From the NCBI RefSeq assembly GCF_003342675.1, contig NZ_CP031148.1, forward strand, positions 2,976,001-3,040,000: a DNA stretch of 64,000 bases, given 5' to 3'. The number at the start of each line of letters is the position of its first letter. Position 1 is the first letter of the stretch. Shown piece by piece: positions 32,349-48,948 of the stretch. This stretch comes from Haloplanus rubicundus (GTDB taxonomy: Archaea > Halobacteriota > Halobacteria > Halobacteriales > Haloferacaceae). A program made the position numbers and the translations under genes. The notes beneath the pieces are model-generated. The model saw nothing but the letters and a program-made list of their open reading frames with translations, had not been told where the DNA came from and did not search any database.

Positions 32349-32621
32349 ATAGCGGGCGGTGGATTTGAACCACGGTCGTTGCGCTCACTACGTTCGCTTC
32401 ACTCCCTGATTCAAATCTACTGGGCGATTTCGAGCGAACGGCTCCCTCGTCGCAAGGCTCCTCGGTCGTCGTTGTCGGCCGGAAAATAGCGGGCGGTGGA
32501 TTTGAACCACGGTCGTTCCGCTCACTACGTTCGCTTCACTCCCTGATTCAAATCTACTGGGCGATTTCGAGCGAACGGCTCCCTCGTCGCAAGGCTCCTC
32601 GGTCGCGTTGTTCGCTCGAAA
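32349..32621. repeat. Two tandem tRNA-3'-end-containing repeat units beside the initiator tRNA
   Basis: Copy 1 (32349-32468) and copy 2 (32486-32605) are 120 bp long and differ at one base; spacing is 137 bp. Each begins, on the plus strand, with ATAGCGGGCGGTGGATTTGAA, nearly the complement of the 3' end of the tRNA gene at 32623. Inside each, the T-arm piece GATTTGAA (32499-32506 in copy 2) has its inverse TTCAAATC (32547-32554). After copy 2 comes a perfect 12-bp inverted repeat, TTTCGAGCGAAC (32565-32576) with GTTCGCTCGAAA (32610-32621). The spacing from copy 2 to the tRNA is 136 bp, so the tRNA end is the third unit start of the series. Confidence 0.85.
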
Positions 32622-32622
32622 A

Positions 32623-32697
32623 TAGCGGGAGGTAGATTTGAACTACCGATCTCCGGGTTATGAGCCCGGCGGAATCTCCTGGCTATCCCATCCCGCT
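32623..32697 (-). tRNA. tRNA-Met (CAT), probably the initiator
   Basis: 75-nt cloverleaf on the minus strand. Acceptor AGCGGGA pairs with TCCCGCT, discriminator A. Anticodon stem CCGGG/CCCGG with loop CTCATAA, anticodon CAT (complement of 32660-32662). Two features point to the initiator: the A1:U72 first pair and the run of three G:C pairs at the bottom of the anticodon stem. T-arm GGTAG-TTCAAAT-CTACC. A TATA-like box for the minus strand lies at 32721-32728. Confidence 0.92.
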
Positions 32698-32824
32698 ACC
32701 GAACGCTACCCCCGAGGCGGCGTTAAGGGTTTTGAAATCGTCGCGACGCGCCGACCCCCGGACCACCACGGGAAAACGCTGAATAGCGACGCGCGCTATC
32801 CGTCGTGGTCACCGGTGGTCCCCG

Positions 32825-48756: not shown

Positions 48757-48874
48757 CGGGCCGGGAGGGAGTTGAACCACGGTCGTTCCGCTCGCTTCGC
48801 TCGCGTCACTCTCTGGTTCAACTCCTTCCTGCCGGTTCCCTCACCGCCTCGCTGTCGCTCGGCGGTTCAGTGCA
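48757..48874. repeat. tRNA-Lys 3'-end-containing repeat unit
   Basis: CGGGCCGGGAGGGAGTTGAA and the following CC (48757-48778) repeat the tRNA-Lys 3' end (48875-48896) exactly over 22 bp at a distance of 118 bp. Within the unit GGAGTTGAACCA (48768-48779) is matched by a perfect inverse TGGTTCAACTCC (48814-48825). A second inverted repeat ACCGCC (48843-48848)/GGCGGT (48861-48866) lies toward the tRNA. The design is the same as at 32349-32621. Confidence 0.85.
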
Positions 48875-48948
48875 CGGGCCGGGAGGGAGTTGAACCCCCG
48901 ACCGACGGATTAAGAGTCCGTCGCTCTACCTGACTGAGCTACCGGCCC
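48875..48948 (-). tRNA. tRNA-Lys (CTT)
   Basis: 74-nt cloverleaf on the minus strand. Acceptor GGGCCGG pairs with CCGGCCC, discriminator G. Anticodon stem ACGGA/TCCGT with loop CTCTTAA; anticodon CTT (complement of 48912-48914). T-arm GGGGG-TTCAACT-CCCTC. TATA-like box on the minus strand at 48972-48979. No intron. Confidence 0.94.

Follow-up and report, generated by a model that had tools for sequence, protein, structure and literature searches.

Short gene-less units with site-copying arms at tRNA T-arms of haloarchaea, a possible family of mobile cassettes

Short units of one anatomy and one orientation, single or in tandem arrays, occur in haloarchaea at a fixed boundary within the T-arm of tRNA genes. 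Their arms follow the sequence of the site that they occupy, two occupied sites outside tRNA genes are empty in relatives, and units are shuffled between tRNA genes that share a T-arm. These units may form a family of gene-less mobile cassettes that is spread by site-specific recombination at G53|T54 of the T-arm (the bar marks the junction), a reading to which a little less than an even chance is given. The unit at tRNA-Lys in the window, which is the whole 64,000-nucleotide stretch of Haloplanus rubicundus DNA that was analysed, is one case of this class-wide phenomenon.

The Lys and Met loci of the window

The unit was noticed in a preliminary description of the window, whose coordinates were all correct when the sequence was re-read, including the repeat of the tRNA-Lys end 118 bp away (48757 versus 48875). 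Along the minus strand, tRNA-Lys is followed by a trailer of 49 nt and then by L, which repeats tRNA positions 54-62 in inverted form; after a core of 40 nt comes R, which repeats positions 54-73 directly:

48875..48948, minus strand: tRNA-Lys(CTT) gene (ARAGORN, Rfam), its own positions 54-73 at 48875-48894
48826..48874, minus strand: Lys cassette trailer, type B, TGCACTGAACCGCC..., containing a small hairpin of its own (sequence, trailer comparison)
48817..48825, minus strand: L arm, reading GGAGTTGAA on this strand; it copies tRNA-Lys 54-62 in inverted form
48777..48816, minus strand: core hairpin of the CAGGGAG..CGACCGTGG family, here as the variant CCAGAGAGTGACGCGAGCGAAGCGAGCGGAACGACCGTGG (sequence, folding)
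48757..48776, minus strand: R, direct 20/20 copy of tRNA-Lys 54-73, TTCAACTCCCTCCCGGCCCG

The two Lys arms, GGAGTTGAACCA (48768-48779) and TGGTTCAACTCC (48814-48825), differ in nature. On the minus strand, the inner end of R, which copies positions 54-73 directly, forms one of them; the other is L, which copies about 54-62 in inverted form. They had been described as exact copies of the tRNA; 11 of the 12 bases bear this out, and the final A belongs to the core, not the arm. Similarly, the 21 bases TGAACCACGGTCGTTCCGCTC are indeed common to Lys 48773-48793 and Met 32503-32523, but only 14 of them are loop proper, the other seven (TGAACCA) being arm. The whole L-core-R segment folds with z = -4.07 as RNA and -2.82 as DNA. 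The type B trailer also stands at both tRNA-Lys genes of other Haloplanus species. The Met locus contains two L-core-R units in tandem, and in the first of these L agrees with the tRNA at position 62, where the R copy has changed:

32622..32698, minus strand: tRNA-Met(CAT) gene (ARAGORN)
32547..32556, minus strand: first unit, L arm, TAGATTTGAA
32507..32546, minus strand: first unit, core hairpin (core pattern match)
32487..32506, minus strand: first unit, R copy, TTCAAATCCACCGCCCGCTA
32410..32419, minus strand: second (tandem) unit, L arm
32370..32409, minus strand: second unit, core hairpin (core pattern match)
32350..32369, minus strand: second unit, R copy

Cores were searched for with the pattern CAGGGAGN{5,35}CGACCGTGGTTC, which occurred twice in the window and in none of 100 window shuffles, a real excess over what GC-rich DNA gives by chance. 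Low complexity of GC-rich sequence was rejected as an explanation on these shuffles and on a reversed-pattern control, which gave 0 matches in nearly all genomes. The only matches at gathering score in a search of the window with Rfam 15 were three tRNAs, and the units themselves had none. Trailers and long cores, for example GCGAACGTAGTGAGC in 32507-32546, contain recurrent GAGCGAAGCGAGC-like motifs. Such sequences in haloarchaeal intergenic DNA form hairpins with 2-bp steps between tandem G.A mismatches, favourable in one strand only, and may represent a wider class.

Anatomy and distribution of the units

On the tRNA strand the general order is trailer, L (inverted 54-63), core hairpin and R (direct 54-73). 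Units measure about 50-140 bp, too short for genes, and have a fixed period where they are in tandem. Correspondence of the arms to the tRNA was measured over 144 distinct haloarchaeal first units, a pooled sample in which relatedness inflates the figures but leaves the within-genome test unaffected. Against the inverted tRNA sequence, L had per-site matches of 0.88-0.97 over positions 54-62, 0.72 at position 63 and about 0.5 at 64-65. The proposal that the core is conserved while the arms follow the host was upheld, with a mean L match of 10.15/12 to the own tRNA versus 8.75+-0.08 in 2000 shuffled tRNAs. The acceptor part of R gave 6.58/8 matches versus 3.68+-0.11, and no shuffled-tRNA control attained the observed value for either arm. 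At the left boundary, the constant sequence that precedes R shows no match to tRNA positions 49-51 (0.19, 0.28 and 0.08); on the other side identity is 0.88 at position 73 and then about 0.4. The copy begins at 52-54, the sites away from tRNAs read GG|TTCG, and the boundary is G|TT, as in integrons. Because G52 and G53 are present on both sides, any point from 51 to 54 could be the place of the cut.

The core hairpin, CAGGGA..GACCGTGG, has an inner stem that varies freely yet covaries, with pairing kept in 126 of 130 cells over 26 distinct 13-nt stems (0/5000 column shuffles). Longer inner parts consist of 2-bp steps with tandem G.A mismatches between them, favourable only in the tRNA-sense strand, as is the core mismatch TCA/TGG. 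A K-turn was considered and rejected, since by eye the tandem G.A pairs are there and the 3-nt bulge is not. A tRNA intron or split tRNA was considered too; a reading of the junctions by eye showed no bulge-helix-bulge (BHB) motif. Other cores have the same architecture (CACGCGAG..CTCGCAATCGGG; CGAGAGAACG..CGTTCGCGTGG; CAGACGAG..CTCGGCGTGG). With at least four kinds of core in existence, a single recognised core sequence is therefore unnecessary.

In 31 single units R has drifted within positions 54-63, and L is closer to the tRNA in 27 of them and to R in three. That L follows the upstream copy fits a cassette composed of positions 54-73, trailer, L and core, in which the hairpin partner of L is the cassette's own start; independent neutral decay of R would give 27:3 too. 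The corresponding comparison within arrays (L against its own start or the next R) had five informative pairs, which split 2:2:1. About 15 of the 31 changed R copies have a one-base T-loop insertion (TTCAcAAT, TTCAAcAT, TTCcAAAT), found at several tRNAs and in several genera (loci L187, L203, L210, L062, L185 and L209, for example), and random substitution is no explanation for this recurrence. Some units stand apart from the usual arrangement. A core about 192 nt past a tRNA-Pro of Natronolimnohabitans (L154) has lost its arms and is probably a decayed unit. Two tRNA-Asp genes 2.3 kb apart in genome G009 (L100, 1785-1857 and 4134-4208) both have a downstream unit, identical in core, and this pair is a segmental duplication around a sensor-kinase-like ORF. 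In G026 (L101, 4732-4770) the tRNA-Thr unit has a second copy 2.9 kb downstream, which includes part of the trailer and has no tRNA.

The flanks of the 45 tRNA matches in the studied Haloplanus genome were read, and 43 could be parsed. An R copy within four edits was present downstream on the same strand at 22/43 tRNA genes, and exact 20/20 copies were present at 11/43 versus 0/1798 wrong-tRNA controls. Arms might have fitted an unrelated tRNA better; this comparison was run, and the own tRNA was strictly best for 21 of the 22 units. All 18 core matches in this genome are a short way downstream of a tRNA gene and on its strand. The sole GGTCGTTCCGCTC match away from a tRNA, at C2 296330-296342, has a flank without arms and is a chance match.

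The core pattern was found in 33/60 relatives and in 32 of 295 genomes sampled across the phylum. All 32 belong to the same order, and the roughly 240 genomes of the phylum beyond it gave 0 matches. Across the class Halobacteria it was present in named genomes of Natrinema, Natrialba, Halorubrum, Haloarcula, Halobellus, Haloferax and other genera. Among haloarchaeal cores with a detectable upstream tRNA, 163/168 lie on the same strand and no more than 300 nt downstream, at a median of 58 nt. About half of tRNAs are without a unit, and the unit-bearing set varies by species. Fourteen matches in bacterial genomes had neither arms nor a tRNA. Viral contigs gave 12 matches, with arms in none; these matches are all chance, and an origin from a virus or plasmid was rejected.

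Exchange between loci and insertions away from tRNA genes

Trailers were compared at Lys(CTT) and Lys(TTT) in 12 Haloplanus genomes. They group into families, four of which each occur at both tRNA-Lys genes and at varying array positions among species; the same 36 nt, for example, stand at Lys(CTT) of the studied genome and at Lys(TTT) of G006. The genome closest at the Lys locus (G005, 95% over the region) has the trailer series A-B-A, and the studied genome has B followed by a remnant of A. Met loci across Haloplanus change in cassette, core and number, and some are without any. Some units are old, because the Leu(TAA) unit is common to several congeners. Ordinary homologous recombination, acting through the repeats of about 20 bp, could account for the shuffling between the two Lys genes.

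Arrays were also found at two sites away from tRNA genes, both of them T-arm look-alikes, GG|TTCG(A/G)NCC: a gene end in Natronorubrum and a position ahead of thiI in one Haloplanus. The protein gene concerned in Natronorubrum texcoconense (L127) is followed, beyond its stop region, by three units. They sit at CGG|TTCGAACCGG; their L reads GCCGGTTCGAA and their R TTCGAACCGGTCT. The host gene has a weak PF01796 match, below cut-off, and encodes a putative OB-fold protein. Units are also present at a paralogue of this gene within that genome (L310) and in a related genome (L312), where the host gene reads TTCGAGCC and the R copies read alike. Together these gene ends carry one to three units at CGG|TTCGA(A/G)CCGG. 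Among other Natrialbaceae loci that were read (L313-L340), 27 have the same gene end with the unit absent, and L313 has a homologous trailer, but core and R are both missing. Haloplanus G009 has an array of 11 units, each 50 bp long, at GG|TTCGATCC in the interval that separates the AdoMet synthetase gene from thiI. They are in antisense orientation ahead of thiI, and no tRNA is there. Four readable congeners (L342, L343, L346 and L351) have GGTGG|TTCGGTCC or a close variant, with the array absent.

The arrays at the gene end and ahead of thiI are insertions, and their arms mirror sites outside tRNAs. Between 9 and 20 nt of the target are present at both ends of the off-tRNA units, and the gene-end cassettes start with 13-19 nt of the host gene, stop codon included. 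The suggestion that the element captures, or is templated on, the site that it joins is supported beyond tRNAs too, at a gene end and at thiI, where relatives are empty. Together with the shuffling at the Lys genes, these insertions and empty relatives point to a mobile gene-less cassette joined at G53|T54.

Possible mechanism, competing explanations and known systems

The target of such a cassette would be the T-arm sequence GG|TTCRANNC, normally within tRNA genes. The cassette would begin with TTC, replacing everything 3' of the site (54-73 in a tRNA), and continue through the trailer and L to a core hairpin ending in GTGG. L would be an inverted copy of the cassette's own first ~10 nt, and L and the cassette start would close a hairpin around the core. 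The folded single strand may be recognised by a putative host recombinase acting in trans, with the T-arm as receptor, in a manner comparable to the joining of a folded attC to attI by an integron integrase. Insertion would spare the tRNA or gene end, the cassette supplying the missing 3' part, while the original 3' part would be displaced downstream as R, and repeated insertion would produce tandem arrays. For the cassettes at gene ends, which carry the host stop codon, recombination of a ready-made cassette would be insufficient without capture or templating; hairpin-primed copying at insertion is one possible way for the new site's sequence to enter both arms. We infer the single-strand recognition, the dedicated recombinase and the entry of the new site's sequence into the cassette.

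It is possible, if on the doubtful side, that this amounts to an integron-like system in which T-arms are receptors and folded hairpins are donors. About half of the tRNA genes would then have an exchangeable 3' half and trailer, the recombinase would be a host enzyme not yet recognised as integron-type, and the same activity would copy a new T-arm-like site into the arms. None of the 12 Haloplanus genomes had a match over cut-off to the integron integrase profile TIGR02249. The Y1 (IS200-type) transposase PF01797 was present in nine of the 12 and absent from the carriers G003 and G011, and the units are therefore not a general product of an IS200-type transposase.

The same arrangement might arise with no dedicated enzyme, by template switching of replication or repair at the quasi-palindromic T-arm GGTTCGAATCC, which would copy local sequence both ways, with spread by homologous recombination or gene conversion and the core passed between loci. 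This is judged rather unlikely. It explains directly why the arms are copies of the local site. The sites are quasi-palindromic, also at the gene end (CCGGTTCGAACCGG), slippage typically gives tandem arrays and changes in copy number, the same inner modules are found at more than one locus, and the shuffling observed was between genes having 20 bp in common. It leaves unexplained, however, why a class-wide conserved core occurs only at T-arm-like sites, why the 53/54 boundary is fixed and the orientation uniform, and how the core arrived at two unrelated non-tRNA sites that are empty in relatives. A function in RNA, which we consider improbable, would place the unit within the tRNA transcript, with L pairing with the T-arm or R and the trailer serving as a folding or processing switch, a terminator or a stabiliser. 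The constant position downstream on the tRNA strand, the strong fold as RNA (z = -4.07), the covarying inner stem, the TCA/TGG and tandem G.A mismatches favourable in the tRNA-sense strand only, and the tracking of the tRNA by L are all in its favour. Against it, mismatches between L and the tRNA have no G.U excess (23 versus 28 A.C), and units exist without a tRNA, at a protein-gene 3' end and antisense ahead of thiI; on both counts the earlier idea that the RNA must fold with its own tRNA's 3' end lacks support. In addition, about half of tRNAs have no unit, the set differs among species, and cores are swapped for unrelated ones.

Least probable, and a reading that we hold very unlikely, is that ordinary integrative elements whose tyrosine recombinases target tRNAs left the R copies behind as attR sites. 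The 3' halves of tRNAs are standard attB sites (PMC8371274), and at L176 and L071 intact elements bearing an integrase (recognised by eye) lie between the tRNA and the unit. At both loci, however, the element's own attR copy is distinct from the unit. An attR copy brings neither an inverted arm nor a class-wide core. The units are gene-less, their tandem repetition has a fixed period (50-140 bp), and the 12 viral contigs with the pattern had no arms. Apparent integrative elements were seen on the tRNA side of the unit at L176 (Haloterrigena salina, tRNA-Val), L071 (tRNA-Pro), L216, L070 and L309, with a tyrosine recombinase recognised by eye in all but L070; both kinds of element therefore use one target site.

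Returning to the mobile cassette, the units resemble tyrosine-recombinase elements of the SSV, pT26-2, pTN3 and SNJ2 types in inserting at tRNAs, rebuilding the 3' part and leaving a direct partial copy of the tRNA, with the T-loop among the known targets. They differ in their lack of a recombinase gene, their size of 50-140 bp, their conserved hairpin core, their inverted copy of the site, and the use of one core at many different tRNAs. Integrase elements adjoin the units and are not within them, and no unit was found as part of an attP. Like IS200/IS605 elements and PATEs, the gene-less palindromic elements of Haloquadratum (PMC3119063), the units are without genes and have hairpin ends; a further common trait is a stretch 5' of the hairpin that can base-pair at the site of cleavage. 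PATEs, as described there, have no target duplication and have element-specific ends, whereas the haloarchaeal units copy the site both ways. Similarly, MITEs are short and non-coding, with inverted repeats and a target copy, but their terminal repeats belong to the element, whereas the arms of the units change by site.

T-arms and 3' ends of archaeal tRNAs are known attachment sites (PMC8371274), and integrons are known elsewhere in archaea (PMC9668308). No element in the available portions of PMC8371274, PMC9668308 and PMC3119063 copies its insertion site in both directions in its arms, and a literature search of open-access papers found no published description of the cassettes. Because each known family tested fails a defining feature, the cassettes, whose recombinase is putative, appear categorically new. 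If the cassette reading is right, a whole archaeal class carries a mobile cassette named in no searched paper, present at about half of the tRNA genes of the studied genome, with repeats that mirror any site entered, and this would be a natural case of an element acquiring the sequence of its target. It would also bear on tRNA annotation, through partial 3' copies, on the evolution of tRNA 3' ends and on tRNA-based integration sites in haloarchaea.

The comparison with integrons is the closest in form. The attC site is a hairpin at the cassette end with unpaired bases and a terminal stem that is sequence-free and variable in length. Integron recombination proceeds by single-strand folding (PMC9668308). 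In both systems cassettes are in tandem and in the same orientation, the junction is G|TT, the cassette begins with one hairpin arm and ends with the other, and the hairpin has a conserved outer part and a variable terminal stem, covarying in the haloarchaeal units. Unlike integrons, these units have neither IntI nor an ORF, the receptor is a T-arm (of a tRNA or a look-alike), the arms of ~10 nt are copies of the receptor site, and the entire 3' part of the tRNA is carried along as a direct copy. If the cassette reading is right, these units would constitute a second cassette system beside integrons, one that is gene-less.
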